Shown here: positions 8,020 through 25,817 of the stretch, in pieces | How positions within the stretch are numbered: position 1 is the stretch's first letter | How the letters are laid out: each line of letters opens with the position of its first letter | DNA from: an uncultured Granulosicoccaceae bacterium | GTDB lineage: Bacteria > Pseudomonadota > Gammaproteobacteria > Granulosicoccales > Granulosicoccaceae | DNA length: 64,000 nucleotides | Direction of reading: 5' to 3' | NCBI GenBank assembly: GCA_937922945.1 | Contig: CAKZUP010000092.1 | Coordinates: 62,001 to 126,000, forward strand | Notes under the pieces: model-generated | Database searches by the model: none | The model's input: the letters and a program-made list of their open reading frames with translations, nothing else | Told to the model about the DNA's origin: nothing | Translations under genes and position numbers: made by a program

Positions 8020-8025
8020 TCGTCA

Positions 8026-8946
8026 TTAGGGTCGACGAGCCGCGGTAATAAGCGCCCATCCATTTTTTGCCGTCGCAGGCTCCAGATCGAACCAAGTATT
8101 GTAGCGCATGGAAAGCTGGTCTACTTGATCTTCAAGGATACCTGACATAAGCAGTATCCCACCAGTTCGCAATAGCCCAGAAAAGCGAGTTGAAAGACTT
8201 GTTAACGGTTCAAACAGTATATTGGCGATAATCACGTCGGCTTGCTCTATTTGCAACTCGTCCGGGTGACTAACAAGCAGTTTTTCAAACACGCCATTGT
8301 CGGCAGCATTTTGACGAGTCGCAATCAGCGCCTGATCATCAATATCAACAGCATAGACCGCTGCTGCCCCTAGTTTTGCCGCTGCAATGGCAAGCACGCC
8401 CGAGCCGCAACCATAATCAATCACTGTCGCGCCTTTTAATGGCGTTCGGGTCTTATCTGTTTTCTGACCCAACCAGTCCAGACACAGCGCCGTGGTTGCG
8501 TGAGTACCGGTGCCGAAAGCCAAACCCGGATCCAAATGCACTATCACGGCACTGGGGTCTGGCGGGGGTTGGTGAGATGGACAGACCCAAAGGGCCGGGC
8601 CGAATTGCATCGGCTGATAATCGGCCATCCAGGCCCGCTCCCAAACCGCGTCTGGCAGGACCCTGAGTTGGTACTCGGGCACTTCCATACCTGACACGCG
8701 GGCGGCGATATGCAAGGCGCTATGCAGACTATCGAGATCTTGTGCCTGAACAAACAATCCGACTAACGTTATTTCATCCCACAGCGGCAGCTCACCCGGA
8801 GCAGGCTCAAGTATGGGTTGGTCGTTCTGATCTTGCAGCGTAACAGATACAGCGCCTGCGCTGAAAAGCCACTGCTCTAAATCTTCTACGGTTGCAGGTG
8901 TGGCACTGACCGCAACCTCGGGCCAATCTGCACTAGGAAGGCTCAC
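8026..8946 (-). CDS. prmA: Ribosomal protein L11 methyltransferase
   Basis: 306 residues, within the family range. Trimethylates L11 using S-adenosylmethionine. The N-terminal substrate domain (VTLQDQNDQPILEP, GLFVQ) precedes the Rossmann methyltransferase domain with LDPGLAFGTGTHATTALCLDWL, the SAM-binding DYGCGSGVLAIAAAKLGA, VYAVDIDDQALIATRQNA and the NPPY-like ADVIIANILFEPL. All PrmA hallmarks are present. Lies between accC (38-bp gap) and the DUF3426 gene. Confidence 0.96.
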   Translation of the reverse strand: MSLPSADWPEVAVSATPATVEDLEQWLFSAGAVSVTLQDQNDQPILEPAPGELPLWDEITLVGLFVQAQDLDSLHSALHIAARVSGMEVPEYQLRVLPDAVWERAWMADYQPMQFGPALWVCPSHQPPPDPSAVIVHLDPGLAFGTGTHATTALCLDWLGQKTDKTRTPLKGATVIDYGCGSGVLAIAAAKLGAAAVYAVDIDDQALIATRQNAADNGVFEKLLVSHPDELQIEQADVIIANILFEPLTSLSTRFSGLLRTGGILLMSGILEDQVDQLSMRYNTWFDLEPATAKNGWALITAARRP

Positions 8947-8984: not shown

Positions 8985-10352
8985 CTAAGCCAGCCCGAGC
9001 TTGTGTTCCAGGTAGTGAATGTCTACCCCACCTGCGAGAAAGCCTTCATCCATGAAGATATCGTTATGCAACGGTATGTTAGTGGTAATGCCATCAATGA
9101 ACACTTCGCTGAGCGCACCGCGCATGCGCGACATGGCGGTTTCTCTGGTCATACCCTTGACGATCAACTTGCCAATCATGGAGTCGTAATGGGGCGGTAC
9201 TTTGTAACCGTTGTAAATATGCGTGTCCATCCGGACACCCAGCCCACCGGGCGCATGGTACTGAGTTATGGTGCCAGGAGACGGCATAAAATTTTCCGGA
9301 TCTTCTGCATTGATCCGACACTCGAATGCGTGACCACTAACAACGATATCTTCTTGTTTGTACGCCAGTTCCTGACCTTCAGCAACCAGAATCTGCTGCT
9401 TGATTATATCGACGCCGGTGATCATCTCGGTAACCGGATGCTCAACCTGGACACGAGTGTTCATCTCAATGAAGTAAAACGCACCGTTTTCGTAAAGAAA
9501 CTCAAAGGTGCCTGCGCCGCGATAACCAATACGTTTACACGCATCAGTGCAACGCTTGCCCATCTCTTGCCGAGTTGCTTCGTCGATTCCCGGTGCCGGC
9601 GCCTCTTCCACCACTTTTTGATGCCGGCGCTGCAAAGAACAATCGCGTTCAGCGAGGTGAATCGCGTTACCGTGGCTGTCAGCAATAACCTGAAACTCAA
9701 TGTGCCGGGGTGTAGTCAGGAATTTTTCCATGTACACCATCGGATTGTTGAATGCTACCGCGGCCTCGTTGCGAGTCATGGATATTGACTGCTCCAGCTC
9801 TTCGTTGTTGTGAACAACACGCATACCACGCCCGCCGCCACCACCGGAGGCTTTGATGATAATGGGATAGCCAATGGATTCGGCCAGACGACGGTTTTCA
9901 GCGTTGTCGTCGCCCAGCGGGCCATCGGAGCCTGGCACGCAAGGAACGCCGGCAGCACGCATTTCTTTGATCGCACTAACTTTGTCACCCATTAGTCGAA
10001 TCGTTTCAGCTTTAGGTCCGATGAAAACGAATCCACTGGACTCTACCCGCTCGGCAAAATCCGCATTTTCAGCCAAAAAACCATAGCCCGGGTGAATCGC
10101 TTCAGCGCGGGTAATCTCTGCTGCAGCAATAATGGCTGGAATATTCAGGTAACTATCAAGCGATGAAGCAGGCCCGATGCACACCGCTTCATCGGCCAAT
10201 CGAACATGCTTCAAGTCTCTGTCGGCTGTGGAATACACCGCCACGGTTTGCAACCCCAGATCGCGGCAGCAACGCATAATGCGAAGCGCAATTTCACCTC
10301 GATTGGCGATAAGAACTTTATTTATTTTGTGTTTTTTGGTTGCTTGTGCCAT
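8985..10352 (-). CDS. accC: Acetyl-CoA carboxylase, biotin carboxylase subunit
   Basis: 455 residues. ATP-dependent carboxylation of the biotin on AccB, first half of malonyl-CoA formation. Motifs: [29 protein letters not shown], the glycine-rich ATP lid [54 protein letters not shown] (catalytic Glu and Arg) and ECRINAED. The C-terminus ends LEHKLGLA. Separated from accB by 77 bp filled with degenerate 14-bp repeats. Confidence 0.98.
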
Positions 10353-10363
10353 GCGCCTGCTCA

Positions 10364-10440
10364 GTCAATTACGATCGGTCGATTACGATCGGTCAATTAC
10401 CCTCGTGAATTAAGATTGGTCAGTTAAAGTCAGTCAATGA
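10364..10440. repeat. Degenerate 14-bp tandem repeat between accB and accC
   Basis: Units begin GTCAATTACGATCG (10364-10377), GTCGATTACGATCG (10378-10391) and GTCAATTACCCTCG (10392-10405), followed by looser copies beginning GGTCAG at 10418 and GTCA at 10432 that reach the end of accB. It occupies nearly all of the accB-accC spacer. Confidence 0.8.
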
Positions 10441-10888
10441 CAATAAGTGGTTCACCGTACTCAACGGGCTGGCCTTCCTCAACAACAATGGCTCGAATGG
10501 TGCCACTGGTTTCAGCTTCAATTTGATTCATGATTTTCATCGCTTCGATGATGCACAAGGTATCGCCTTTCGATACCGACTGACCAATTTCAACGAAGGG
10601 CTTTTCACCTGGCGATGGAGCTCGATAGAACGTGCCCACCATGGGCGATTCGACGATAGTGCCCGGTGGCAGTAAATCTTCTGCGTCCGCTGCTGGTGCA
10701 GCGCTGCCAGGCGATACGCTGATGGGGTTAACGGTTTGAGCCGCTGGGGCAACTGGAACTGGAGCTGGCTGGTATTGAGTTGAGCCCCTGGCAATGCGAA
10801 CCGATTCTTCGCCCTCCACAATTTCTATCTCAGCTACATCTGAATCTTCTAGCAATTCGATGAGTTTCTTTATTTTTCTAATGTCCAT
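10430..10888 (-). CDS. accB: Biotin carboxyl carrier protein of acetyl-CoA carboxylase
   Basis: 152 residues from the ATG at 10888 ([16 protein letters not shown]), which is the family start; the frame continues ten codons further to another ATG, but that extension is not conserved. A Pro/Ala-rich linker (residues 45-75) leads to the biotinyl domain: [25 protein letters not shown] and the biotin attachment motif [14 protein letters not shown]. Carries carboxybiotin between AccC and the AccAD transferase. First gene of the acc-prmA-dusB-fis-purH cluster. BirA would modify it, so it is the main biotin consumer near the bio transport genes. Confidence 0.97.
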
Positions 10889-10942
10889 GTCGCTGTTTCC
10901 CAGAGGTGCCCATATCACTTGACTAAATTTTAAGCATAAACG

Positions 10943-10960
10943 AAGCGGTCTTCACCGCTT
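10943..10960 (-). promoter_or_regulatory. Hairpin in the accB leader
   Basis: A perfect 7-bp stem AAGCGGT / ACCGCTT with a four-base loop, 55-72 bases upstream of the accB ATG. No U-tract follows, so it is not a classical terminator. It could be a leader structure involved in accB control or simply a stable stem in the untranslated leader. Confidence 0.4.
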
Positions 10961-11073
10961 GTTCATCATAAGACAATACTTTGTATTACCTTCTTCAATT
11001 ATGCGAAGATACCATCAAATTGCCGCGGTTTACAGACAATTAGCCGCAGTACTCCAAAAAAAGAGATGATACT

Positions 11074-12069
11074 ATTTCCAGCTCAAACCCTACACTCGCC
11101 TTTGCCGCACTCGATCCTCACCAAATTCTCGATGCGATAGACGCACACGGTTGGCGCACCGATGGCCGCGTGTCCGCACTAAACAGTTACGAAAACCGCG
11201 TGTACAGCATCGGACTGGAAGACAGCTCCTCCATCGTTGCCAAATTTTATCGACCCGAACGCTGGTCGAATGAGGCCATTCTCGAAGAACATCGTTTTTG
11301 CGATGCGCTGGTAGAGAACGACCTACCGGTTATCGCACCGTTTAAAAATGCGCAAGGTGAATCCTTGTTCACGCACGGTGTCTTTCGGTTCTGTCTGTTT
11401 CCGACCGCCGGCGGGCGACCACCGGAGCTCGATAACGACGACCAATTACTGGTTATCGGAAGAACACTGGGACGACTGCATCTCAGCGCTGACAGGCATG
11501 AATTCAAGCATCGCCCAAAAATCGACGCGCAACGACTAGGTGATGTGTCAGTTGATTTTCTGGAATCCTCGGATTTACTGCCAATGGATGTCAGAACCGC
11601 GTACTTATCTCTGGTTAAAGAAATCATGCCCGTGGTGCACGAGCAATTCAGTGCCTGCGCCAAGGTTAAAATGCGCTGCATTCACGGCGATTTTCATCCG
11701 GGCAATATTTTATGGGGCCGGGACGATACACCACACTTGCTTGATTTTGATGATGCCGGCACGGGTCCGGCAATTCAGGATTTGTGGATGTTTATTTCGG
11801 GTGATAGACAATACGCTCAAGCACGGCTGGGCCACTTACTCGACGGCTATCATGAGTTTCGCGAATTTGATGAGCGAGAGCTGGCGCTGATAGAACCGTT
11901 ACGGGCATTGCGTATTATTCACTACGCAGCCTGGATAGCCAGACGCTGGGAAGACCCTGCGTTCCAACGCGCTTTTCCGTTTTTTGCCAGCAACCGGTTC
12001 TGGGATGAACACATTCTCTCGCTGAAAGAACAACGATCGGCGCTTGATGAAGCGCCATTGATCTATTAG
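11074..12069 (+). CDS. srkA: Stress response serine/threonine kinase SrkA (YihE/RdoA), probable AUU start
   Basis: APH-like cytoplasmic kinase of envelope-stress and cell-death control. Motifs: LNSYENRVYS, VAKFYRPERWS with the ATP Lys, the catalytic loop IHGDFHPGNILW and LLDFDDAGTGPAIQDLWM. The first usual start codon is GTG 11170, but that removes about 32 conserved residues: the same frame upstream reads LAFAALDPHQILDAIDAHGW, aligning with E. coli FTFQTLHPDTIMDALFEHGI. The frame closes at TAG 11041, with no ATG, GTG or TTG between. ATT at 11074, seven bases after an AGAG ribosome site, gives 331 residues against 328 in E. coli. Otherwise a frameshift must separate the gene from the out-of-phase ATG at 11066. 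Confidence 0.88.
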   Translation: MSSSNPTLAFAALDPHQILDAIDAHGWRTDGRVSALNSYENRVYSIGLEDSSSIVAKFYRPERWSNEAILEEHRFCDALVENDLPVIAPFKNAQGESLFTHGVFRFCLFPTAGGRPPELDNDDQLLVIGRTLGRLHLSADRHEFKHRPKIDAQRLGDVSVDFLESSDLLPMDVRTAYLSLVKEIMPVVHEQFSACAKVKMRCIHGDFHPGNILWGRDDTPHLLDFDDAGTGPAIQDLWMFISGDRQYAQARLGHLLDGYHEFREFDERELALIEPLRALRIIHYAAWIARRWEDPAFQRAFPFFASNRFWDEHILSLKEQRSALDEAPLIY

Positions 12070-12088
12070 CTGGATTTATTAGCCAGAT
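12064..12088. repeat. 13-bp duplication at the srkA stop codon
   Basis: TATTAGCTGGAT (12064-12075) is followed by TATTAGCCAGAT (12077-12088), with two mismatches. The first copy contains the srkA stop codon and the second repeats it. Confidence 0.65.
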
Positions 12089-12109
12089 ATGTTCACAACA
12101 AGTCGATGG

Positions 12110-13321
12110 TTACACCCGCCTGAACACCAGCGATGCGTTAGTTCCGCCAAACCCGAAACTGTTCGACATCACTGTATCAATCGCGACATTGTCGTGCCGT
12201 TCCGTTGCGATATTCATGTTTTCGGTCGCAGGGTCCAGCGTCTGGATGTTGGCCGATGCAGCAATAAAACCCGCCTGTTGCATTAGAAGCGTGTAAATGG
12301 ATTCCTGCACACCAGCTGCACCCAAAGAGTGGCCTGACAACGATTTCGTTGAGCTAATAAGAGGCGTATTATCACCAAACACGCCACGCACCGCTTTGAG
12401 TTCGGCAATATCACCCACGGGCGTACTGGTGCCGTGCGCGTTGATATAGTCGATGGGCGTATCAACTGTTGCTTTGGCCATTTCCATGCAGCGTTGAGCG
12501 CCTTCGCCAGACGGCGCCACCATGTCATGGCCGTCGGATGTGGCTCCGTATCCAACCACCTCCGCATAGATTGTTGCACCACGAGCCTTTGCCATTTCCA
12601 GCTCTTCCACCACAACCATACCGCCGCCGCCAGCAATGACAAAGCCATCACGATCAGCATCGTATGCACGTGATGCTTGTGTCGGTGTGTCGTTATACTT
12701 TGAAGACAGCGCCCCCATGGCGTCAAACAGGCAACTTAAGGTCCAATGCTCCTCTTCACCGCCACCAGCGAAAATCCGATCCTGCTTGCCTAGTTGAATC
12801 AACTCAACAGCGTTGCCAATACAATGAGCACTGGTTGAGCAGGCCGATGAAATAGAGTAGTTGGTTCCACGAATTTTATACGGTGTAGCCAGACACGCCG
12901 ATACAGTTGAACCCATGGTTTGCGTGACCCGATAAGGCCCAACGCGACGCAAGCCACGATTGCGCAACACATCTGCGGCCTCTACCTGACTCATGGTGGA
13001 ACCACCGCCTGAACCTGCAATGATGCCCGTGCGCTCATTCGACACTTCTTTGTCGGTCAAGCCTGCATCAGCGATGGCATCTCGCATGGCAATATACGAG
13101 TAAGCAGCAGCTTCGCCCATAAACCGCAGTTGCTTGCGTTCGATGTTTTCTTTCAGATCAATATCGGGACGTCCGGCAATATGCGAACGCATCCCAAGCT
13201 CTTTATATTCTTCGCGGGTGGTAATACCTGACTTACCTTCCCGCAACGATTCGGTTACCGTCTGCTTATCATTTCCAAGACAGGAAACGATGCCAATACC
13301 GGTGATAACTGCACGACGCAT
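12110..13321 (-). CDS. fabB: Beta-ketoacyl-ACP synthase I
   Basis: 403 residues. Elongates acyl-ACP and is needed for unsaturated fatty acids. The thiolase-fold catalytic triad is visible: Cys in [16 protein letters not shown], His in [12 protein letters not shown] and His in [12 protein letters not shown]. The terminal [17 protein letters not shown] is typical. Follows fabA by 12 bases in the usual fabAB operon. Converges with srkA. Confidence 0.97.
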
Positions 13322-13333
13322 AACGCTAACTCG

Positions 13334-13849
13334 CTAAAAATCTTTTGTAGATGTGAACAAGCCAACGCGTAAATCGTTAGCGGTATAAATTTCCCTGCCA
13401 TCAACCAGCATTCGACCGTCGGCTATTCCCATCACCAACTTACGTTCTATCAAGCGCTTCATGTGTAACTCGTAAGTGACCAGCTTTGCTTCAGGCAACA
13501 CTTGACCAAAGAATTTAACCTCACCAGAACCCAGCGCTCTACCGCGCCCGGGATTGCCTTTCCAGCCGAGAAAAAATCCCACCAATTGCCACATGGCGTC
13601 GAGCCCAAGACAGCCTGGCATAACGGGGTCGCCAACAAAGTGACAGCCAAAGAACCAAAGATCGGGGTTAATGTCGAGTTCTGCTTTGATATAGCCTTTC
13701 TCGTGATCGCCACCGTCGGCGGTAATACTGACGATGCGATCCATCATGAGCATGTTCGGCGTTGGCAGGCGTGCATTGCCCTCACCAAACAAGTCGCCCT
13801 GACCGCACTCAAGCAACTCTTCGCGGGTAAAGGAGTTTTTATCTATCAC
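13334..13849 (-). CDS. fabA: 3-hydroxydecanoyl-ACP dehydratase/isomerase
   Basis: Makes and isomerises trans-2-decenoyl-ACP, the branch point to unsaturated fatty acids. The GTG at 13849 gives 171 residues starting (M)[21 protein letters not shown], the canonical FabA length and N-terminus. A TTG at 13915 in the same frame would add 22 non-conserved residues and cannot be excluded, because the ribosome site before the GTG is weak. Active-site His is in [17 protein letters not shown] and the Asp in [15 protein letters not shown]. Pairs with fabB. No FabR-type operator was recognised upstream. Confidence 0.95.
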
Positions 13850-13963
13850 GTGTGCTGCAATTCCAGTCAAAGCCCGTCGGTATTCTACTGCTTTGACCGC
13901 CTCAGTTCCATGCAATGCATGACTTTTGCGAGAAAAACACCGCCTTGCGTTAAATTCGGCCGC

Positions 13964-13993
13964 AAAACTACTGAGCTAAAAAACTACTGAGCA
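13964..13993. repeat. 16-bp duplication at the end of the DUF4197 gene
   Basis: AAAACTACTGAGCT (13964-13977) recurs as AAAACTACTGAGCA (13980-13993). The second copy covers the last codons and stop of the minus-strand DUF4197 gene, so the stop region has been duplicated. Confidence 0.7.
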
Positions 13994-14721
13994 GAAAAAA
14001 CGCGCCTGAGTAAATCGCTGGTGCGTTCAAGCGGATTGGTACGAATCGCCTTTTCTTCCTCGGCCAGATAATGAAAAATACCTTCTGACCCTTTGTCCAC
14101 AACGTGGCCACTCAAATCGGCATCGACTTTTGGTGCAAGTGGAATCGCCTGATATTGCTTTAATAACCGATTAAACGTTTGTACCGCTCCCACCTGAGCC
14201 AGAGCATCGTCGACCAATGGGCGCATCGCTGTTTTGATTGATGAGCCGGTTTTTTGCTCGAAATACTGCGTGGCTGCGTTGTCTGGGCCTTGTAGTATGC
14301 CCTTGGCATCCTGCACCGACATGTCTCGAATGGCGCCAACAAACAAGCTTTTGGCTTTGGGCGTGGCCAGTTCCGCAGCGCGGTTAAGGCGCATTTCCAG
14401 ATCATCAAACGAACCCTCCAGACCAACTTTACTGGCGAAGTTACGCGCGGTGACCAGCGTTTTCGGCAACGGGATGCGTATGGTCGGGTCGGACGAGAAT
14501 CCATTTTCCTGACCCAGCTGGCCCACAACCGCATTTGAGCCCTTTGTCAGCGCTTCTTTTAGCCCGGCAGTAATATCAGCTGTGCTAAGCGCACCACCCT
14601 GACTTGATCCGAGTACACTCTCTGCCGTTTTGGTTATATCGCTCAGGGTGGGACCACTACCCGCACAACCACTAACAAGTGCAGCCACCAGCACAAGAGA
14701 ACCGAACTGTAACGAACGCAT
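13984..14721 (-). CDS. DUF4197 domain lipoprotein
   Basis: 245 residues from the ATG at 14721, chosen because a TGGAG ribosome site lies six bases upstream and a lipoprotein signal begins there (MRSLQFGSLVLVAALVSGCAG, Cys at 19). The rest matches DUF4197: GLKEALTKGSNAVVGQLGQENGF, IPLPKTL, LEMRLNRAAELATPKAKSLF, and the C-terminal YLAEEEKAIRTNPLERTSDLLRRVF. Periplasmic, function unknown. Upstream in-frame codons to 14790 are ignored. Confidence 0.85.
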   Translation of the reverse strand: MRSLQFGSLVLVAALVSGCAGSGPTLSDITKTAESVLGSSQGGALSTADITAGLKEALTKGSNAVVGQLGQENGFSSDPTIRIPLPKTLVTARNFASKVGLEGSFDDLEMRLNRAAELATPKAKSLFVGAIRDMSVQDAKGILQGPDNAATQYFEQKTGSSIKTAMRPLVDDALAQVGAVQTFNRLLKQYQAIPLAPKVDADLSGHVVDKGSEGIFHYLAEEEKAIRTNPLERTSDLLRRVFSAQ

Positions 14722-14922
14722 AACTAACTCCAGATCATCAGAACTTAAACCATTAGACGTTAGGGTAGGCTGTTTCGGCAATTTATGCACAGTTCCGAGT
14801 ATTAAATTATCTTAAACTCAGTTCAGCCTGATTTCTGCGGCAATTGAGCCCTGACACGCTCGATACACGCATGGGCTAACCGTCTGAGGATAATCGTCTG
14901 ATGGTGCACAGAGCAAATTAAC

Positions 14923-16398
14923 GTGGATTTACAGCTAGGTATGGCGTTTTATTGGAAAGAAGATTCAAAGGTACACCACTGGCCCTTAAATCAAACAAGG
15001 AGTCAAACGCATAATCAAACACGAGCTAGCGAGACCGACAATCACAACATCAACGCGTGTTGCGAACAAGTCCAGTTCATTCAGGACGCTAATTCTGTCG
15101 AAGCTTTGCAGGCAGTGCGCAGTGCCGTTATGCAACAGCGGGAATTCTGTGTTCAACCAACCGGTATTGAGTTAAATCCGTGTGCTGAGCGTAGCTTGCG
15201 GGGAACGTCACCCGGGACAGGCACGAGCGCTTGCTTTCAGTGCATGAGCTCGGGCAGCAATGGCAATCCGAAAACCATTCGCCGCAGTCACGATTCCTGG
15301 CTACGCAGTTTTTCAGTCAACGCTAAACTAGCGGCAATAGATTCGGCCGACCACTATGCCATTGTTGGCAAGCTATCTCACTCGCTGGCGCTCTATGCTG
15401 CATTGGAGGCGGCCAACCTGGGAGCAGACATTCACGCTCTGGGAGAATTAAGGCCAGATCATCAGTTAAACGCGATGCGCACACTTGGCTCCAGTGTGTT
15501 GTATGCCACACCGACGCAACTGCGCCAGCTATGCCACCGTGTTAAAAATGAATCGCAGATCATCAGTAATCTGAGGTGTATTTTTTCCGGTGGTGGAAAG
15601 CTGGATAAGCGCACGGCCAGTATGGTTAAACGGTGTTTCCCGAATGCTTGCTTAAGAGAATTTTATGGTGCATCAGAAACAAGCTTTATCACAATGACTG
15701 ATGAGCACACACCAGAGGGTTCTGTCGGCAGAGCGTATCCGGGGGTGCAACTGCACATTAACACCGCTCTTAACGATTCTATTGATAACGACATTGCTGA
15801 TAAAAAAGCGAGTGACAAAGAAGCTGTCGATAAGCAGGAACCTTGCGATCAACAAAGAACACATTTAGCAGGAGAAATATGGGTGAAGAGCCCATACTTA
15901 TTTCTCGACTACGCGGATGCTAACACCACGCTTGCAAATGAGTTAGCCGAAAACCCTATAAGCACAATTTCATCACCAAACACTAACGCCCGATGGCATA
16001 ACGGTTACGTCAGTGTGGGCGAATTCGGTTATCTTGATAACAATGGCTATCTGTTTCTGGAGGGACGTTTATCGCGACGGATTAACGTTGCTGATCAACT
16101 GGTTTATCCAGAAGAAATTGAAACCATACTAAATGAGCACCCTGCCATTTTTGCTGCAGCCGTTATTCCAGTTGTCGATAAAAAACGTGGGCACATATTG
16201 GTTGCGATTGTCGAGGTTGAGGCTGAGATCGACAATAGCCATACACCAAACTGGCGGCAAGAACTGCTTGTAACACTACGACAACAACTCGGTAGCTTAA
16301 AAGCACCACGGGATATCATTCAAGTGGATCACTTACCACTTCTGGCCTCCGGCAAACCCGATTTGTCAGCAGCCGAACAATTCGTACAACGGCACTGA
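14923..16398 (+). CDS. Class I adenylate-forming enzyme (acyl-CoA synthetase-like), reduced N-terminus
   Basis: 491 residues. Activates a carboxylate as an acyl-adenylate, usually to CoA; substrate unknown. The ATP loop MSSGSNGNPKTIRRS is at residues 108-121, about 60 earlier than in ordinary acyl-CoA synthetases, so the N-terminal subdomain is short. Core A5 is YGASE (248-252). Core A7 reads YVSVGEFGYLD: the ribose-binding Asp is Glu367. In the A8 hinge GRLSRRINVAD the usual Asp is Arg385. The A10 catalytic Lys is probably K478 in LASGKPDL. An acidic/lysine insert occupies 283-312. Start GTG is weak; ATG 14941 is an alternative. Ten bases before the thiolase gene, so co-transcribed. Confidence 0.85.
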   Translation: MDLQLGMAFYWKEDSKVHHWPLNQTRSQTHNQTRASETDNHNINACCEQVQFIQDANSVEALQAVRSAVMQQREFCVQPTGIELNPCAERSLRGTSPGTGTSACFQCMSSGSNGNPKTIRRSHDSWLRSFSVNAKLAAIDSADHYAIVGKLSHSLALYAALEAANLGADIHALGELRPDHQLNAMRTLGSSVLYATPTQLRQLCHRVKNESQIISNLRCIFSGGGKLDKRTASMVKRCFPNACLREFYGASETSFITMTDEHTPEGSVGRAYPGVQLHINTALNDSIDNDIADKKASDKEAVDKQEPCDQQRTHLAGEIWVKSPYLFLDYADANTTLANELAENPISTISSPNTNARWHNGYVSVGEFGYLDNNGYLFLEGRLSRRINVADQLVYPEEIETILNEHPAIFAAAVIPVVDKKRGHILVAIVEVEAEIDNSHTPNWRQELLVTLRQQLGSLKAPRDIIQVDHLPLLASGKPDLSAAEQFVQRH

Positions 16399-16407
16399 CA
16401 ACAGACA

Positions 16408-17544
16408 ATGACTGCACAGGCTTATATTGTTGCTTCCAAACGTTCGCCTATAGCACCGCGTAATGGGGCGTTATCCAATCTGGAACTACACCAACTTAGC
16501 GCACCGGTTATAGAGTCACTGATACGTAGTAGCAAGATCGACAAGACGCAGATAGATGAACTCATTGTCGGCAACGCACTGGGTGCCGGCGGCAATCCTG
16601 CTCGCGTGATTGCGTTGGCCAGTGGATTAAATGAAAACGTTGCCGGCCTCAGTATCGACAGACAATGTTGCAGTGGGCTTGATGCTGTATTAATAGCGAA
16701 TGATATGGTTATATCGGGTCGGGCGTCAGTGGTTATTGCCGGCGGCGCTGAAAGTTATTCCACACGCCCACAACGTAGCCGACGCAACACTGAAACCGGA
16801 CAATGGCACGCGTACGAGCAACCGGCGTTCACACCATGGCCGGATAAAGATCCGGATATGGCACAGGCAGCCGATACACTCGCCCAACAACTCGATATAA
16901 GTGTTGATGTACAAAATGAATGGGCAATCCATAGCCACCAGAAAGCGTTGAACGCATTGGCGCGTCTGAAGAGCGAAATCGTGTGCGTTGGTAGCGTTGA
17001 GCAAGATACGTATGCGCGAAATTTAAGCCACACTGTGTGTCAACGAGCGCCGCGCATACACGGCAGTATCACCGCCGCAAACACGGCGGTGGCTGCTGAT
17101 GGTGCCGCATTCAGCATTATCGTTAATGAAGCAATCGCCGCAGGCTTGGGCGGTCCACAACTGCGAATTCAATCAGGCTGCACAATTGGCGCAGACCCGC
17201 AGTTACCAGGGCTTGCACCCGTTCAGGCAATACAAGCAGTACTTGCCAATCAAAAGATGGTTTCATCAGAACTGCGTTATGTTGAAATGATGGAGGCTTA
17301 TGCAGCACAAGCGATAGCTTGCATCCAACAACTTAAACTCGATCCGGCCATCTGCAATGTCGGCGGAGGTGGGTTAGCACGTGGTCATCCTATTGGTGCA
17401 TCGGGAGCGGTATTGATAACAAGATTGTTTAGCGAACTAACCGCTGCGACTCTGACTGAAAAAAGACGGCCAAACTTCGGACTCGCAGCAATCGCTGCTG
17501 CTGGCGGGCTAGGCAGCGCTGTGTTGGTGGAAGCGGTCGGTTAA
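16408..17544 (+). CDS. Thiolase-superfamily enzyme with altered catalytic motifs
   Basis: 378 residues with the full thiolase fold. The acylated Cys is present (C87 in SIDRQCCSGLDAV) and so is the GHP His (H327 in LARGHPIGASGA). The NEAF motif is MEAY, with Asn replaced by Met295. The second catalytic Cys, which sits in LCIGGG of biosynthetic thiolases, is replaced by Ala363 in GLAAIAAAGGLG. Normal thiolysis or Claisen chemistry would therefore be impaired or mechanistically different. The neighbouring ligase could supply its acyl-CoA. Its stop overlaps the end of the oppositely oriented nitroreductase gene by four bases. Confidence 0.88.
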   Translation: MTAQAYIVASKRSPIAPRNGALSNLELHQLSAPVIESLIRSSKIDKTQIDELIVGNALGAGGNPARVIALASGLNENVAGLSIDRQCCSGLDAVLIANDMVISGRASVVIAGGAESYSTRPQRSRRNTETGQWHAYEQPAFTPWPDKDPDMAQAADTLAQQLDISVDVQNEWAIHSHQKALNALARLKSEIVCVGSVEQDTYARNLSHTVCQRAPRIHGSITAANTAVAADGAAFSIIVNEAIAAGLGGPQLRIQSGCTIGADPQLPGLAPVQAIQAVLANQKMVSSELRYVEMMEAYAAQAIACIQQLKLDPAICNVGGGGLARGHPIGASGAVLITRLFSELTAATLTEKRRPNFGLAAIAAAGGLGSAVLVEAVG

Positions 17545-18227
17545 TCTTCGCCAAAACCATAAAAACGTGAGAACGAAGCCAAGGCTTCACGATCGGTTCG
17601 TACTTGGTTCACTGGGTGCGACTTATCTGGCTTGCCAAGCGCAATACCACAGACCACCATTTCGTTATCGGGCAATTGCAAATACTCGTGCACCACATCT
17701 GCATGGTGCGCAAGCGCACCGATACCGCTGGATCCAAGCCCTCGGCTTTGTGCACTGATGAAAAAATTCATAAGCGCCATACCCATATCCATAAAGCACC
17801 CTTTACCCATACTACGTTCGATAGTGACAACCACACCTACAGGCGCATCGAAAAAACGGTAATTACGATCGAACTGTTTACGTCGGGCTTTTTTATCCAA
17901 CCGCTCAATACCTAAAGCATTGTACAGAGCGAACCCTGCAGCTATCTGTCTCGCTTTTAGCGACTTTGGCATAACACGTGGAAAATAGGAATATTCATCG
18001 ACCGTTGGGCGGTTTTGCTTTATTGCCAACTCCAGCGATTCAATTAATCCAGTGAGTGCATGGCCTGCAAGCACATGGAAGCAGCCCGGCTGCAGGTTCG
18101 CACCACTGGGGGCTTGACGTGCATCTTTCAATATCGCTTCAATGCAATCGCGATCGACTGGTTCAGGCAAGAACGCACGAACAGAGCGGCGTTGCTGTAG
18201 CAGGTTTTCCAGATCGCCTGCCTTCAC
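17541..18227 (-). CDS. Nitroreductase-family flavoprotein
   Basis: 228 residues. FMN-dependent oxidoreductase fold: RRSVRAFLPEPV at the N-terminus (FMN phosphate contacts), ARQAPSGANLQPGCFHVL, DMGMALMNFFISAQSRGLGSSGIGAL and VCGIALGKPD. Substrate cannot be read from the sequence; members reduce nitro groups, quinones or enones. Its ATG overlaps the bioY stop by four bases (ATGA), which ties it to the biotin transporter unit rather than to a generic detoxification role. Confidence 0.9.
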   Translation of the reverse strand: MKAGDLENLLQQRRSVRAFLPEPVDRDCIEAILKDARQAPSGANLQPGCFHVLAGHALTGLIESLELAIKQNRPTVDEYSYFPRVMPKSLKARQIAAGFALYNALGIERLDKKARRKQFDRNYRFFDAPVGVVVTIERSMGKGCFMDMGMALMNFFISAQSRGLGSSGIGALAHHADVVHEYLQLPDNEMVVCGIALGKPDKSHPVNQVRTDREALASFSRFYGFGED

Positions 18228-18772
18228 GTTCTGGATAATACACTTTGAGGTCTGGCAGTTAAAAGAGAAGCAGTTACAGCGCCTGCGATAACCGCTTTGA
18301 GTATGTCGCCGGGAATGAAGGCCAGAACCAACACCGCCGCCTCATTGATCGATTTGCCCATATTCCACGCCATGCCAACGATTCCAAAAACATAGAGAAC
18401 AAGAACACCGCCTATCAAAGACGCTAAGGTTGCCAGCAAAAAGGTCGGTGCCGAACGAAAGCGCTCGAAGATTAAACCGGTCACATATGCAGCAATTGGC
18501 CAACCAATCAGAAAACCAACCGACGGTGTCCATAATAGTCCAATGCCGCCCCGACCTCCGGCCAGCAAAGGTAAACCGATAAACACCAGCAACAAAAACA
18601 ACATGACGGCAAGCGCTCCGCGTTTGGCACCCAGGACAGTACCGCACAACATAACGCCTAAGCTTTGCGCCGTTATCGGAATTCCGAACGCAAGCGTAAG
18701 TTTAGGTATTAAACCAAGCGCGGCTATGAGTGCTGCGAACAAGGCGATAAAAACAACATCACGTTCTTTCAT
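18224..18772 (-). CDS. bioY: Biotin ECF transporter S component BioY
   Basis: 182 residues from ATG 18772 (MKERDVVFIALFAALIAALG), which lies 22 bases after the bioN stop; an upstream in-frame extension would overlap bioN. Six hydrophobic segments. BioY hallmarks: ITAQSLGVMLCGTVLGAKRGALAV, LPLLAGGRGGIGLLWTPSVGFLIGWPIAA and FIPGDILKAVIAG. High-affinity biotin capture in the inner membrane. Followed by the nitroreductase with overlap. Confidence 0.95.
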   Translation of the reverse strand: MKERDVVFIALFAALIAALGLIPKLTLAFGIPITAQSLGVMLCGTVLGAKRGALAVMLFLLLVFIGLPLLAGGRGGIGLLWTPSVGFLIGWPIAAYVTGLIFERFRSAPTFLLATLASLIGGVLVLYVFGIVGMAWNMGKSINEAAVLVLAFIPGDILKAVIAGAVTASLLTARPQSVLSRT

Positions 18773-18794
18773 TTTTCTTTTAAACCAACTCGTG

Positions 18795-19433
18795 TTAATC
18801 AGTATTGTGTGAGCGTTCATGGCTACTGGCAAAAGCTCGTATTCCACCTCGCGCTTTCAGTGCTTCGGCTACGTGTTCGGCATCATCCATGGCAATCAGA
18901 CTCATTGGAAGCACAATACGCCAGTTCACTCTTTTAACCGCTCGCAACCGCCAGGCATCAAACAGTGTCGAGCCTTTCTCTATTAGCACCGGGGTAAATC
19001 TAACCACCAGCGCGATGGCTATTTCCAGGGCTCTGGTACTAAACCCTAATGCACGAACCGGTGTCAACGCAGTTTGTATCAAGGCAAGTAAGTCGCTTAG
19101 TCGACTTGTCATGGTCATTAAGTTAGACAGAGCCACGATACTTATAAGCCGAATCGCGAAGGCAATGCCTTGCATGGCTGTGCCAGTGACTCCGTGCCAT
19201 ACCACAATAACCAGTAAAATCGGCCACAGAAACAGGAGTTTTTTCGCCCCGATACGAATAAATGACACACCTCCAACAGCGTAGAATAAGACGCAACAAA
19301 GCAATGCAATACACTGAATGTACAGACTGTCGAACACAAACAAAAATATCGACGCAAAACAAACGAGCAAAAACTTCCAACCGACAGGCACCTTATGCCA
19401 AACGGTTTGAACAGGCGAATTAAACGAAAGCAT
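18795..19433 (-). CDS. bioN: ECF transporter T component (BioN)
   Basis: 212 residues, EcfT/CbiQ family coupling protein. Four to five transmembrane segments (WKFLLVCFASIFLFVFDSLY, LLFLWPILLVIVVWHG). Signature cytoplasmic motifs FDAWRLRAVKR and AEALKARGGIRA couple to the ATPase; the second matches the family Ala-Arg-Gly signature. Overlaps the end of bioM by 14 bases. With BioM and BioY this is a dedicated three-part biotin ECF importer. Confidence 0.92.
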   Translation of the reverse strand: MLSFNSPVQTVWHKVPVGWKFLLVCFASIFLFVFDSLYIQCIALLCCVLFYAVGGVSFIRIGAKKLLFLWPILLVIVVWHGVTGTAMQGIAFAIRLISIVALSNLMTMTSRLSDLLALIQTALTPVRALGFSTRALEIAIALVVRFTPVLIEKGSTLFDAWRLRAVKRVNWRIVLPMSLIAMDDAEHVAEALKARGGIRAFASSHERSHNTD

Positions 19434-20145
19434 CGGTACTACCCAGTTGTTTCATCTTCGCACAATAGGCTTCAAGAACAATGGTAGGCCTTTCATCCAT
19501 AACCAGTTCTCCATTATCCAGCCAGAGTATACGATTGTACTCTTGCAAGGATTCAATCTGATGGGTCACGTGCACAATGGATGCATCAAGTTTTTCAAGT
19601 AGGCGAGACAATTGCGCAGTGGTTGGCATATCCAGACCTGTGAAAGGTTCATCGAGCACCACAAGCTTAGGCTTCATAAGAATAACAGCCATGAGGCAAA
19701 CCAAATGCCGTTGCCCTTGCGACAAGGTGCTTACCGATTGCTCCGCCCAATGCATTACACCGAATTCTGCCAGCAACTCGCGCAATTGCCGCTGGGCTTC
19801 ATCGCGACTTTGTCCAAGCTGCTCCAAACCAAACGCCAACTCTTCTTCTACGGTGGGAAATATGACTTGATGATCAGGGTTCTGAAATAACATACCAACA
19901 GTGCGAATTGCCCGGTATCGATCCGTCGCAACATCAACACCCGCTACTGTCAACGAACCGGAACTCGGTTCATTAAGACCACAAAGCAATCGGGCCAATG
20001 TCGATTTACCCGAACCATTTCGCCCCACTATGCCTATTCTACGTTCCGTCGCTTCTATTGATAGGTTTGATAGTAGCGTTTTATCGCCTATGCGATAGCT
20101 TACATTCACCAAAGCAAGCAGCGGTTCAGAATCACGGCCTTTCAT
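19420..20145 (-). CDS. bioM: ECF transporter ATPase (BioM)
   Basis: 241 residues. Walker A GRNGSGKSTLARLL, Q-loop GMLFQNPDHQVIFPTVEEELAFG (the ECF-ATPase Q-helix), signature LSQGQRHLVCL, Walker B KLVVLDEPFTGLD and switch His in IVHVTHQIE. Signature has LSQGQ in place of LSGGQ, as is common in this family. Only one ATPase is present, so it would act as a homodimer. Starts on the last base of the tauE-like stop. Confidence 0.93.
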   Translation of the reverse strand: MKGRDSEPLLALVNVSYRIGDKTLLSNLSIEATERRIGIVGRNGSGKSTLARLLCGLNEPSSGSLTVAGVDVATDRYRAIRTVGMLFQNPDHQVIFPTVEEELAFGLEQLGQSRDEAQRQLRELLAEFGVMHWAEQSVSTLSQGQRHLVCLMAVILMKPKLVVLDEPFTGLDMPTTAQLSRLLEKLDASIVHVTHQIESLQEYNRILWLDNGELVMDERPTIVLEAYCAKMKQLGSTDAFV

Positions 20146-20915
20146 TAACTACCAACCCATTTTAATAGTAAGCTGCCCAAACCGATGACAGAAACCAGAA
20201 CCAGACCATAGCCTATAAACCGTTCGAATCGGGATTTATCCCCTAGTGCAAATCGATGGTGAACCTTCAATCCAAGATAATGCCCTAACGCTGCTAACGG
20301 AAATGACAGTAACGTCAAGCGCCATTGCAAGTTTACATCGGCCGCAACAAAGGTTGCTATTTTTACGACAACCAATACAATCCAAAGCGCGAAGAACGTG
20401 TCTCGCATTTTTTCTTTTTCTAAGTATCTGCCACCAACAGCCACGATAAGTGGGGCACCAATTAACGATACGCCACTCACGTAGCCACCCAGACATAAGA
20501 AAACAAAGTCTGCGAATTTACTGTTGCTGGAGAATACATAATTCAGTACATAACCGAAGCCATACACTAGTGTTATCAGATAGACGATACCACTAAGCAA
20601 TGCACCCGGCAGCTTTATAAGACCCGTTAGACCTATGGCAATTGGAATCGCCATAACGAGTAGAATTTTTACCAAAAAGCGCCAATCGATATTCGTCAGG
20701 CGCGTAAACACCGTAAGTGATGAAAAAAACAATAACTGGAACGCGATAGCTGGGAGGAAAATGAGAGGGTCATTTTCAAACATTAACAGTAACGGTAAGC
20801 TCAATGCCGCGCCGCCAAAGCCCAAGCCAGATCGAACAAAACCACTCCATACAAAGCAGGCGCTAATCAGCAACCATTGCCACAACGGCAAGCTATCTAA
20901 AATGGTGAGAGTCAC
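20145..20915 (-). CDS. TauE/SafE-family anion permease
   Basis: 256 residues, about eight hydrophobic segments, with the repeated family patterns GFVRSGLGFGGAALSLPLL and YVSGVSLIGAPLIVAV. The family exports sulfite, sulfoacetate or related anions, though many members are uncharacterised. Contact with bioM (one-base overlap) places it in the transporter unit; four bases separate it from tag upstream. A link between export of a small anion and biotin chemistry is speculation. Confidence 0.85.
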   Translation of the reverse strand: MTLTILDSLPLWQWLLISACFVWSGFVRSGLGFGGAALSLPLLLMFENDPLIFLPAIAFQLLFFSSLTVFTRLTNIDWRFLVKILLVMAIPIAIGLTGLIKLPGALLSGIVYLITLVYGFGYVLNYVFSSNSKFADFVFLCLGGYVSGVSLIGAPLIVAVGGRYLEKEKMRDTFFALWIVLVVVKIATFVAADVNLQWRLTLLSFPLAALGHYLGLKVHHRFALGDKSRFERFIGYGLVLVSVIGLGSLLLKWVGS

Positions 20916-20919
20916 CGGC

Positions 20920-21537
20920 TTACTTTGGCCAGTGTGATGGGCGTTTAATCGTGGAGGCCATGCGAGCTACGGCTTTATGACGTGGGCAAGAAACCAAATG
21001 ATCGTTAACCATGCCACTTGCCTGCATGAAAGCGTAGCATGTTGTGTTACCAACAAATTTGAACCCGGCCTTTTTGAGCGTTTTACTCATCAGTACAGAT
21101 GCATCGGTACTGGACTTGACTGTTTTCATTGTCCGATGCTTGTTCTGCACCGGCTTATAATCAACAAAAGACCAGAGTAAATCCACAAACGATTCACCCC
21201 TTTTTTCCATAGCGACAACCACTTTGGCATTGTTGATGGACGCTTCAATTTTTTGGCGGTGCCTGACAATACCGGCATCGAGCACAAGCTTCTCTACTTT
21301 TGCATCTGTAAATCGCGCTACTTTGGGTATATCAAAATCTTTGAAGGCTTTCCGGTAGTTCTCTCGCTTGTTTAATATGGTTATCCAACTCAAGCCTGCC
21401 TGAGCACCTTCCAGGTTAAGCATTTCAAACAATTCTGTGGCGTCGTAGCACGGCACGCCCCACTCGGTATCGTGATAGTCGATATACAGCTCGCTGCCCA
21501 GACACCAGCCACAGCGTTTTTCTTTTACGGCGCTCAT
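20920..21537 (-). CDS. tag: DNA-3-methyladenine glycosylase I
   Basis: 205 residues. Excises 3-methyladenine from alkylated DNA. The N-terminal RCGWCLGSELYIDYHDTEWG contains the zinc Cys and the family W-G motif; LNLEGAQAGLSWITILNKRENYR is the helix-hairpin region with the base-pocket Glu and Trp; VGNTTCYAFMQASGMVNDHL and CPRH supply the remaining zinc ligands. Possibly first in the minus-strand unit leading to bioY. Confidence 0.96.
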   Translation of the reverse strand: MSAVKEKRCGWCLGSELYIDYHDTEWGVPCYDATELFEMLNLEGAQAGLSWITILNKRENYRKAFKDFDIPKVARFTDAKVEKLVLDAGIVRHRQKIEASINNAKVVVAMEKRGESFVDLLWSFVDYKPVQNKHRTMKTVKSSTDASVLMSKTLKKAGFKFVGNTTCYAFMQASGMVNDHLVSCPRHKAVARMASTIKRPSHWPK

Positions 21538-21671
21538 GCGCTAATTGTGCACACACTCAGCGCACAACACAATCATTGGTTGGAAAATTCAAAAGACTTG
21601 GGTTGAAACAGAATATCAGCCAGCGCTGACAGGATTTTAAAGACAAGACTGCCTTTTTTCGAACCGATCGC

Positions 21672-23777
21672 CTAGGTGCCGAATCGCTTTTTATGGGTTG
21701 GAAGGCTCAGAACGTTTCCGGGATTATCCACACCCTGCACACCTTGCGGCCACTTACGCAGCCAGGCAAGGTACATCGCAACAGGCATAGGCTTACTAAT
21801 ATAGTACCCTTGTGCGATATCACAGCCCTGTGTCTGCAGGAACTCAAGCTGATCTTCATCCTCCACACCCTCGGCAACCACTTTCATATTAAAGTGCTTG
21901 CCCAGACCGAGTACCGCCTCCACAATGGCAACATCGTCATTGTCACTCGAAATATCCGTGATAAACGCGCGGTCTATCTTCAGCGTATGTACGGGGAAAC
22001 GTTTCAGGTAAGCCAGCGAAGAATAGCCAGTTCCAAAGTCATCAATTGCCAAGCCAAGTCCAAACCGACTCAGTTCGTGCAGCGAGTTGATGACTTCTTC
22101 CGGGTCGTGCATAACCGCACTTTCGGTTATTTCCAATTCCAGAAACTCGGGCGGCAACATGCTGTCCTTGAGCGCCTTGCTTACCATCGGCAACAAGTTA
22201 CCATCGGTAAACTGAACGGTGGAGATATTCACGGCAATGTTTAGTGTGTGGAAACCAAGTTGCTGTAGTTTTCGGGTTTCTTTGCAGGCGGTACGTAGAA
22301 TCCATTCACCCAACTCGATGATCATGCCAGCCTCTTCCGCTACCGGCACAAAGACTTCAGGTGAAATAAAGCCCTTGGTTGGATGCTTCCATCGAACCAA
22401 TGCTTCAGCACCCGTGACCTGACGCGTATTTATATTGACCTTCGGCTGATAGTAAACTTCGAACTGTCCTTCCTGCAGTGCGATTTTCAAATCCTGCTCG
22501 AGACTAATGCGCGCTGTTAGACGACTGCGCATTTTCTCATTGAACATCTGGTACTGGTTTTTACCGTTACTCTTGGCTTCCTGCAAGGCTACGGCTGCGT
22601 TATTCACGATTTCCTCGCCCATCAGCTCTTCATCCTGATCGCCGTGAACATCAATTGGAAAGCAAGAGATACCAACCGATACCGCGGCTTTTAGCGTAAA
22701 GCCTCTATATTCATACGGAGCGGTGGAAATATTCATAACCCGACGCGCTATCTCTTTAGCGGCTTGTCGATCGCCAACGTTTTTTTGAATCACGACAAAC
22801 TCGTCACCATCAAGACGCGCAACAAGATCGATATCGTGCATCATCGACTGTAGCCGATTACCAATTTCTGCTACCATTTTGTCACCGACCAAGTGTCCGT
22901 ATTGGTCGTTAAAGAATTTGAAGTTATCCAGATCAACAAGAAAAACCACAAAAGACTCATCGTTCTCTACAGCATTGGATACGGTTTGCTTTAACTTATC
23001 CTCGAACATGAGGCGGTTGGGCAAATGCGTTAGCGGGTCATGGTGTGCGGCGAACTCCAGGTACTGTTGCTTTACTTTCACCTGGCGAGCAGCACGTTGC
23101 TGCGCCTCAATTAAACTGTTGTACTCATCAGCCAGACCATTCAGGTCTTCGCTTTCGGCGTAGTCAATTTTGTCGGGCACCTTACCCTGGCTATTCTCAC
23201 GACTGTCTCGCAGCTTTGAGGTCAGGTTAGCCACCGGATGAATATATGATCGGTTAGTACCCCATAACGTGACCAGGGCTGCGATTATGCCGATCAGAAG
23301 CGACGCTACAACAACCAATAGCGTATAAACCACTGCCACGGTAAAGATATCGCCTGTGTATATTCGAGCAGCGGCAAGCACTCGCCCCTTGGAGCTATCT
23401 AAAAACCACAACACATCAATGGAGCCGCTCCGGTTTTTTCTACTGCGGCTGCCATGCTGACCCAGGCTTTCAAATTCAGGCAATTCGCCTTGCGTTACAA
23501 CCGGGTTTCCAGCTGTATCGGTCAACAAAAGACCGATCATGGAATCGTTAATCAGGCCCTGTGGATTGAGCAATGTTTCAGGAGGGCTATAGGTAACGAT
23601 GTTTTGAAGCGCATTGTGCTCATGTTCTATGGCACTGTCCACAGACTGATGGTAGCGGGTCCATAGGAGAGGTAAGAGCAGTACGAGTTGAGCTATAAAT
23701 ACTGAGCACAGCACAACGACTGCCAGCTTTCTTGCTGGTCGCGAACTTGATAGCTTTTCAAGTACGATTTTGAACAT
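21672..23777 (-). CDS. Membrane GGDEF-EAL cyclic-di-GMP enzyme
   Basis: 701 residues. Transmembrane segments near residues 17-38 and 150-178 bracket a periplasmic sensor of about 110 residues, followed by a HAMP-like linker and a short coiled coil. The GGDEF domain has DNFKFFNDQYGH and the active-site variant RLDGDEF. The EAL domain looks catalytically complete: AEALVRWKHP, LELEITESAVM, IDDFGTGYSSLAYLKRFP and KIDRAFI. Phosphodiesterase activity is likely; cyclase activity is uncertain because the first Gly of GGDEF is Asp. No obvious signal partner alongside. Confidence 0.92.
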   Translation of the reverse strand: MFKIVLEKLSSSRPARKLAVVVLCSVFIAQLVLLLPLLWTRYHQSVDSAIEHEHNALQNIVTYSPPETLLNPQGLINDSMIGLLLTDTAGNPVVTQGELPEFESLGQHGSRSRKNRSGSIDVLWFLDSSKGRVLAAARIYTGDIFTVAVVYTLLVVVASLLIGIIAALVTLWGTNRSYIHPVANLTSKLRDSRENSQGKVPDKIDYAESEDLNGLADEYNSLIEAQQRAARQVKVKQQYLEFAAHHDPLTHLPNRLMFEDKLKQTVSNAVENDESFVVFLVDLDNFKFFNDQYGHLVGDKMVAEIGNRLQSMMHDIDLVARLDGDEFVVIQKNVGDRQAAKEIARRVMNISTAPYEYRGFTLKAAVSVGISCFPIDVHGDQDEELMGEEIVNNAAVALQEAKSNGKNQYQMFNEKMRSRLTARISLEQDLKIALQEGQFEVYYQPKVNINTRQVTGAEALVRWKHPTKGFISPEVFVPVAEEAGMIIELGEWILRTACKETRKLQQLGFHTLNIAVNISTVQFTDGNLLPMVSKALKDSMLPPEFLELEITESAVMHDPEEVINSLHELSRFGLGLAIDDFGTGYSSLAYLKRFPVHTLKIDRAFITDISSDNDDVAIVEAVLGLGKHFNMKVVAEGVEDEDQLEFLQTQGCDIAQGYYISKPMPVAMYLAWLRKWPQGVQGVDNPGNVLSLPTHKKRFGT

Positions 23778-24080
23778 TGTGGCTTTCAGTCTCAGCCCCC
23801 CGCATTCTCATTAATCCAGCGGCAAGCTTATTAGCTAAAAAAATCTCATCGCGTCCGGTGCGTACAGACACGACTTTCCATGCAACTAATAGCGGCACGT
23901 TTAACGCGCTCTTAACACCACCGCATGGGGCCTACAGAGATAGTCAGGGCTAGTAAAGATACGGTATCGAGCAAGAAGGGAGGGGGTTTATTCAGTTTGC
24001 CTGAACCAACAACTGCGTGGCGCGGCGAAAATAGGCTTAAATGTGTGCATAGCGCACAAACACGGATTTACATTGGAGCA
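23778..24080. other. Intergenic stretch, no gene recognised
   Basis: About 300 bp between the GGDEF-EAL gene start and the groEL terminator. An open frame of about 70 codons on the plus strand (from 23925) runs through the groEL terminator and has no recognisable features, so I do not call it. The promoter for the GGDEF-EAL gene should lie near 23780-23850. Confidence 0.6.
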
Positions 24081-24112
24081 AAAAAAATCCCTGCTCCGAA
24101 AAGCAGGGATTT
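24081..24112 (-). terminator. Rho-independent terminator of groESL
   Basis: Perfect 11-bp stem AAATCCCTGCT (24085-24095) with AGCAGGGATTT (24102-24112) and a six-base loop. On the minus strand it is followed by a run of Ts (complement of A 24081-24087). It lies 29 bases past the groEL stop. Confidence 0.92.
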
Positions 24113-24140
24113 CTTAATTTACATCAAATTGTGCGGTTGA

Positions 24141-25817
<1,677 letters not shown>

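Follow-up and report, generated by a model that had tools for sequence, protein, structure and literature searches.

A group of six adjacent genes that joins a biotin importer to three enzymes was examined in a 64,000 bp stretch of DNA (the window; positions 62,001 to 126,000 of contig CAKZUP010000092.1, assembly GCA_937922945.1) from an uncultured member of the Granulosicoccaceae, belonging to the genus Granulosicoccus and with a genome that is 94 % complete. The two genes on the forward strand encode a compact AMP-forming acid ligase of the ANL family that resembles YhfT (LIG, 14923–16398; Pfam AMP-binding 83.3 bits, AMP-binding_C 54.2 bits) and a YhfS-like thiolase-fold enzyme without the second catalytic cysteine (THL, 16408–17544). 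Converging on them, on the reverse strand, are the genes for a nitroreductase-family flavoprotein (NTR, 17541–18227; Pfam Nitroreductase 93.2 bits, cut-off 23.5) and for an energy-coupling factor (ECF) importer, made up of the biotin-binding S component BioY (18224–18772; Pfam BioY 116.9 bits, cut-off 25), the transmembrane T component BioN (18795–19433; Pfam CbiQ 35 bits, cut-off 25) and the ATPase BioM (19420–20145; Pfam ABC_tran 100.3 bits, over its cut-off). The genes and strands given in a first-pass annotation, made from the sequence alone, were confirmed by the open reading frames and their matches to Pfam and NCBIfam models. The best NCBIfam model for BioM, ECF_ATPase_1, scored 170.5 bits, below its cut-off of 315. 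As in known BioMNY ECF transporters, the importer genes are complete, with BioY, a CbiQ-type T component and an ABC ATPase encoded side by side and all over the Pfam cut-offs, and the gene families predict that the importer carries biotin.

The importer and NTR genes had been described as overlapping one another, and this was found for BioN and BioM (14 bases) and for the end of BioY with the start of NTR (4 bases, 18224–18227), as was a 4-base overlap of the convergent ends of THL and NTR (17541–17544). The remaining overlap, of 53 bases between BioN and BioY, depends on an upstream GTG start that extends the BioY frame to 18847. Because homology to BioY begins near residue 26, which is an ATG with its high end at 18772, BioN and BioY probably do not overlap and are 22 bp apart.

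Recurrence of the gene set with biotin importers

Named genomes were scanned with an alignment of THL, and the best 80 of 557 confirmed places were read for up to 6 kb on each side (18 of the 80 are shorter than 12.9 kb). All counts given for the nearest loci rest on these, with score limits of at least 200 bits for THL, 100 bits for LIG and NTR and 130 bits for BioM. LIG was present in all 80 loci and was next to THL in gene order in 79. BioY and BioN were each found in 60, BioM in 59 and NTR in 49, with BioY and NTR together in 36. The layout seen in the window, with LIG followed by THL converging on NTR, BioY, BioN and BioM in that order, was reproduced exactly in 32 of the 80 loci, so the arrangement reflects more than chance. 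The first-pass annotation had tied its reading to conservation of the neighbourhood in relatives, and the gene set does recur in several families, with BioY at the 60 loci counted above. Among the 20 nearest loci with no local BioY, 16 were in genomes that encode BioY elsewhere, and the remaining four were from two Tatumella and two Granulosicoccus.

The convergent layout was seen on plasmid records from Thioclava, Aestuarium and Pseudosulfitobacter, and a Salipiger plasmid record carries a single operon in the order lig-thl-bioM-N-Y-ntr. Paracoccus yeei has bioY-lig-thl with a convergent ntr. The order bioMNY-lig-thl was found in Azospirillum, in pSymB of Sinorhizobium meliloti, where the ligase frame is unannotated and was found by profile, and in an unannotated Microvirga record in which BioN and BioY were named by eye. 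BioY, LIG and THL were also found together, by profile, in the actinomycete Streptantibioticus.

The strongest evidence for a link to biotin is an exchange of importers in Tatumella. In each of the two Tatumella loci (L247 and L252), a transporter gene of the EamA family diverges from ntr-lig-thl, at a distance of 341 and 278 bp respectively, and its product is 38–39 % identical, over 293 columns, to the Escherichia coli biotin transporter BioP (YigM, encoded by b3827). BioP is unrelated to BioMNY and is not part of the module in the window, but in Tatumella its homologue takes the place that BioMNY has in other carriers. With E. coli BioP as the query, only the ntr-adjacent transporter was matched in each Tatumella genome, and both genomes lack BioY and contain bioB. 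Since the same enzymes adjoin an unrelated biotin importer, a functional tie between them and biotin acquisition is very probable. In a FastTree phylogeny, in which several forks are weakly supported and two long outgroup branches join, the Tatumella THL nests among those of the Rhodobacterales beside Thioclava, and the Granulosicoccus THLs fall inside the alphaproteobacterial spread. Most simply, the enzyme genes would have been transferred to a gammaproteobacterium lacking BioMNY, where they came to lie next to the biotin importer that it already had.

Two surveys started from BioY. In a class-wide sample, BioY was found in 30 of 370 genomes and the LIG and THL pair at two of 28 loci outside the genus. 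One of these carriers (L061) has bioM-N-Y-LIG-THL-NTR on a single strand and the other (L077) lacks NTR. At L074, from the same family but another genus, an ordinary ligase and an ordinary thiolase that retains Cys378 lie 3–6 kb from a solo-type BioY and score below the limits. L107 and L115, each with a weak ligase match and no thiolase, were likewise left out by the score limits. In a phylum-wide sample, BioY was found in 98 of 397 genomes, at 119 places, and 80 of these places were taken to cover each genus, with some repeats thereafter, using limits of at least 300 bits for THL and 200 bits for LIG and NTR. A profile of the BioMNY-type BioY divided the 80 into 29 loci scoring at least 164 bits and 51 solo-type loci scoring at most 92 bits. 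LIG and THL were beside seven of the 29 BioMNY-type BioY and none of the 51 solo-type BioY (hypergeometric chance 4.9e-4 with kinship ignored; three of the seven are from one family). The other 22 BioMNY-type loci have the importer without the pair, and in this they differ from the window. NTR adjoins three of the 29, of which two, from one genus, are without LIG or THL. In these two loci (L133, about 7423–8166, and L173, about 7440–8183) NTR directly follows BioY with no ligase or thiolase gene nearby, and NTR may there act alone on a biotin-related compound.

An importer slot in Granulosicoccus

BioY was found in 21 of 27 genomes of the genus. Among the 20 BioY loci other than that of the window, five have BioMNY together with NTR, THL and LIG, one has BioMNY only (L041) and 14 have a solo BioY that is distant from that of the window (about 29–38 % identity). 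All but one of the 20 lie in a single slot, which runs from GGDEF/tag (plus groEL where the contig reaches it) to a DUF4197 gene, fabA and fabB; the lone exception, L037, is located elsewhere. Because 19 loci occupy the same slot, the full module and the solo BioY replace one another at one chromosomal site, in whichever direction. In the window the region from 8985 to 25799 holds this slot, which carries either a solo BioY or the full module and is beside accC, an accB-like gene, fabA/fabB and groEL.

The gene for a TauE/SafE permease (20145–20915, reverse strand; Pfam TauE 50.1 bits) shares one base with BioM. The first-pass annotation had proposed that this protein exports a by-product anion, a suggestion that was not borne out, as the permease gene also adjoins BioY in seven of the 14 solo-BioY loci of the genus, in which the three enzymes are all missing. 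It therefore appears to be local backbone; as a functional part of the module it was ruled out, and it is treated here as a neighbour.

Two further Granulosicoccus genomes hold LIG, THL and NTR without any BioY and are invisible to a BioY-based survey. At both loci (L182, 2743–9194, and L253, 2546–9044) the gene immediately upstream of ntr, in the same orientation, encodes an ammonium-transporter-family protein (Pfam 308 and 305 bits, respectively), and a gene for a SulP-family transporter, so named for L253, is upstream of lig. Neither BioY nor bioB was found in these genomes, in which BioP was not searched for. A stand-in importer is conceivable.

Active sites and relatives of the enzymes

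In 103 distinct THL sequences, selected with the limits used for the phylum survey, the nucleophilic cysteine (Cys89) and the histidine of the GHP motif (His348) are present without exception. The second catalytic cysteine (Cys378, in the CxGGGxG motif) is present in none of them, being replaced by Ala in 93, Gly in six and Pro in four, and Asn316 is replaced in 97. The THL of the window has Ala at Cys378 and Met at Asn316. In these respects the family differs from classical thiolases such as the Zoogloea ramigera thiolase and PhaA, and the control thiolases (L093, L094, L074, PDB 4o99 and 4wyr) all retain a cysteine at position 378. In thiolases, Cys378 acts as the base towards acetyl-CoA, removing a proton from it. 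Without this base, and if a carbon-carbon bond is made, a donor that loses CO2, such as malonyl-CoA, would be likelier than acetyl-CoA. THL is a natural case of a thiolase family that has kept one catalytic cysteine and lost the other.

The catalytic Glu (motif A5) and Lys (motif A10) of LIG are kept in all 103 distinct homologues. The predicted structure of LIG is ANL-like (mean predicted local distance difference test score 82.7; template modelling scores of 0.4–0.7 to its matches). A charged low-complexity insertion, DNDIADKKASDKEAVDKQ, is encoded at about 15760–15860 of the window, and a longer one is found at the same place in L039. The nearest solved relatives of NTR are 3gr3, 7dp0–7dp2 and NfnB (2wzv), which it matches over nearly the full profile (10–225, 9–229 and 7–225 of 229 positions; 126–218 bits), but the biotin-importer context of its gene sets it apart from them.

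The best NCBIfam models for the two enzymes are NF005797/PRK07638 for LIG and NF005212/PRK06690 for THL, which presumably stand for YhfT and YhfS. The likeness to these proteins was drawn through the models and not through Bacillota sequences, and both enzymes score far below the cut-offs (189.7 of 518 bits for LIG and 264.1 of 498 bits for THL). The NF005212 control gave a match in Bacillus subtilis, without distinguishing which control passes the cut-off. The window likewise joins BioY, ligase and thiolase genes as do bioY-yhfT-yhfS of B. subtilis (where bioY is also called yhfU) and bioY with yhfT-yhfS of Staphylococcus aureus. The set in the window differs in having dedicated BioM and BioN components and a nitroreductase, and in the Ala and Met found at Cys378 and Asn316 of its thiolase.

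Two papers report that in Bacillus and Staphylococcus BirA controls bioY together with one gene resembling those for CoA ligases and one resembling those for thiolases (PMC11089781, PMC6391492), and with a third they describe YhfT and YhfS as putative homologues of a fatty-acid ligase and an acetyl-CoA acetyltransferase, and as repressed by BirA with biotin (PMC11089781, PMC6391492, PMC7235819). On the strength of these papers the association of bioY with YhfT/YhfS is already in print, and the gene set is thus not wholly new. In the literature searched, no account was found of the BioMNY and nitroreductase set of Proteobacteria, of the exchange for BioP or of the loss of the cysteine; key older papers lay outside that search, so that an earlier mention is possible. 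With one pattern for a BirA-type site (16-base spacer, up to three mismatches) there were no matches in the window. A BioR-type pattern gave nine matches with one mismatch where 4.8 were expected, and the two that are inside the gene set (16172 and 17117) fall in coding sequence.

Biotin requirement of the carriers and possible functions

The view that the gene set is not a standard biotin synthesis pathway agrees with the distribution of bioB (TIGR00433), which exceeded the cut-off in none of the 27 genomes of the genus, some of them incomplete drafts (best score 34.3 of 225 bits). In genomes grouped by gene content, bioB was over the cut-off in two of nine with LIG and THL, neither of two with NTR only and five of 23 with a BioMNY-type BioY alone, and in another set it was over the cut-off in three of 23 carriers (two Tatumella and Paracoccus aminovorans). 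As bioB is absent from the genus and from most carriers tested, the enzymes do not appear to be tied to de novo synthesis. Auxotrophy was rejected as a mark of the module because genomes with a BioMNY-type BioY and no LIG and THL pair mostly lack bioB as well. The window genome encodes a biotin protein ligase (196.6 bits), and 22 of the 27 genomes of the genus have one that exceeds the cut-off.

Published observations bear on some of these organisms. A Paracoccus with bioMNY on a plasmid and a complete biotin pathway is described in PMC4554459. According to PMC9561691, biotin in seawater may be undetectable and reaches a few hundred picomolar at most, and a large proportion of aquatic Alphaproteobacteria are predicted not to make it. 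In that study neither Sulfitobacter sp. DFL-14 nor Pacificibacter marinus DSM 25228, both without bioF, A, D and B, grew when supplied with desthiobiotin, and a third strain, S. qiaohouensis, grew without either vitamin (PMC9561691); a term search of that text did not return bisnorbiotin. The cassette is present in DFL-14 itself (L239, with no NTR in the locus) and in two other strains of P. marinus (L200 and L206).

Together, these observations suggest that the gene set serves an undescribed route by which imported vitamin B7 is processed or rescued. Of the earlier proposal that the enzymes process an imported biotin vitamer, the role in biotin use is likely, given the recurrence in several families and the importer exchange in Tatumella, and the exact processing is only proposed. 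Our preferred interpretation, held tentatively, is that the genes form a horizontally mobile biotin-acquisition module that salvages biotin with a damaged side chain and combines an importer with an acid ligase, a thiolase-fold enzyme with one catalytic cysteine and, in many loci, a flavin reductase. A particular chemistry of activation, two-carbon re-extension and flavin reduction is a more doubtful proposal. The importer (BioMNY, or the BioP homologue in Tatumella) would take in both biotin and side-chain-altered biotin, for example bisnorbiotin or unsaturated biotin left by the beta-oxidation of other organisms. LIG would convert the carboxylate to an activated form, either an adenylate or a thioester of CoA, and THL would hold the acyl group on Cys87 and add a two-carbon unit, likelier from malonyl-CoA with decarboxylation. 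Host fatty-acid enzymes might then reduce and dehydrate the product, NTR (or, in rhizobia, a dehydrogenase) would reduce the double bond of the enoyl intermediate, and the rebuilt biotin could pass to a thioesterase or BirA. That the whole amounts to a biotin repair route, in which imported damaged biotin is rebuilt and the enzyme set travels and pairs with whichever importer is at hand, is rather unlikely as stated. If true, biotin breakdown products would be among the sources of the vitamin and models of vitamin exchange would have to change, and YhfT and YhfS, which are under BirA in Bacillus and Staphylococcus and carry only putative names, would gain a testable role.

Several observations weigh against salvage of damaged biotin. 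The nearest loci are not independent, as 70 of the 80 are from Rhodobacterales, and NTR is missing from 31 of them. NTR is found beside BioY without LIG or THL (L133 and L173) and BioMNY without all three enzymes (L041). The best PDB match to LIG by sequence is an amide bond synthetase (6sq8), and CoA transfer is only predicted. Loss of Cys378, and of Asn316 in most sequences, would weaken any role in making carbon-carbon bonds. The neighbour survey revealed no dedicated beta-keto reductase or dehydratase recurring beside the genes. Absence of bioB is not specific to carriers, extending to 18 of 23 genomes with a BioMNY-type BioY but no pair. Finally, the module appears to give no use of desthiobiotin, since the cassette-linked strains DFL-14 and P. 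marinus DSM 25228 failed to grow on it (PMC9561691).

The main rival is that the genes are a response to biotin limitation that leaves biotin itself untouched. When biotin is lacking, acetyl-CoA carboxylase would fail and malonyl-CoA run out, and LIG would activate exogenous fatty acids while THL handled the acyl-CoA. The BirA-repressed YhfT and YhfS are putative homologues of fatty-acid enzymes according to PMC11089781, PMC6391492 and PMC7235819, and in PMC12642757 biotin limitation is reported to disturb S. aureus membranes via acetyl-CoA carboxylase. The locus in the window is also near fabA, fabB, accC and the accB-like gene, but these neighbours are backbone that flanks the solo BioY too. 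LIG, moreover, is compact and scores far too low to pass the fatty-acid ligase models among its matches, and a flavin reductase adds nothing obvious to lipid scavenging, which we consider an unlikely explanation, though a serious one.

Breakdown of the biotin side chain, also considered in the first-pass annotation, would proceed by activation and then shortening through beta-oxidation. CoA activation and thiolase are the first and last steps of biotin beta-oxidation, but THL is without the cysteine that ordinary thiolysis requires, bioB is missing and a biotin importer is present in most of the carriers tested, and the Bacillus and Staphylococcus counterparts are repressed and not induced by biotin, so that catabolism is improbable. 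Biotin might instead be trapped or transferred, with LIG making biotinyl-AMP, biotinyl-CoA or an amide and THL passing the biotinyl group from Cys87 to an acceptor. The retained Glu and Lys of LIG, the amide bond synthetase as its nearest PDB sequence and a thiolase fold that, having kept Cys and His and lost Cys378, might remain able to transfer acyl groups all fit such a scheme; NTR would have no role in it, however, and the window genome has a normal biotin protein ligase (196.6 bits), which leaves transfer with a low probability too. Supply of pimeloyl-CoA or another early precursor is very improbable. A ligase and a thiolase could make pimeloyl-CoA or shorten dicarboxylic acids to it, and bioB is present in some carriers (two Tatumella, G235, G547 and one Paracoccus), but it is below the cut-off in all 27 genomes of the genus and in seven of nine and 20 of 23 other carriers. 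For Granulosicoccus, with no bioB over the cut-off, precursor supply was rejected.

Some carriers have additional neighbours that would suit a reductive route ending in release, but none is general. A 4HBT thioesterase and a medium-chain dehydrogenase/reductase (MDR) family dehydrogenase are beside the LIG and THL pair in S. meliloti and Rhizobium etli. In p42f of R. etli (L175, 4032–8167) the order is thioesterase-ligase-thiolase with the dehydrogenase gene divergent, and there is no BioY in the 15 kb read. A Microvirga plasmid (L087, 8896–9591) has a MaoC-like hydratase frame after THL (32.2 bits, cut-off 27). Among the 80 nearest loci, an MDR dehydrogenase gene is present in eight, mostly Sulfitobacter, and a MOSC-like gene in nine, a subset of Rhodobacterales, where it either separates THL from the bio genes or simply adjoins THL. 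Five of the nine have NTR and four have none in the locus. The Pfam score of the MOSC-like protein is marginal (23.7 bits against a cut-off of 22.7 for L204, 7095–7700, and 20.1, under the cut-off, for L232), and the match in L217 is on the other strand (43 %). An aminotransferase cluster, found in eight of the 80 loci, was set aside as mixed and hence unrelated to biotin, the three members scanned comprising two omega-aminotransferases (AptA) and one diaminobutyrate transaminase. Most of the recurrent neighbour clusters are shadow reading frames, and the clusters common to six or seven loci each follow one genus where examined (Aliiroseovarius, Sulfitobacter).

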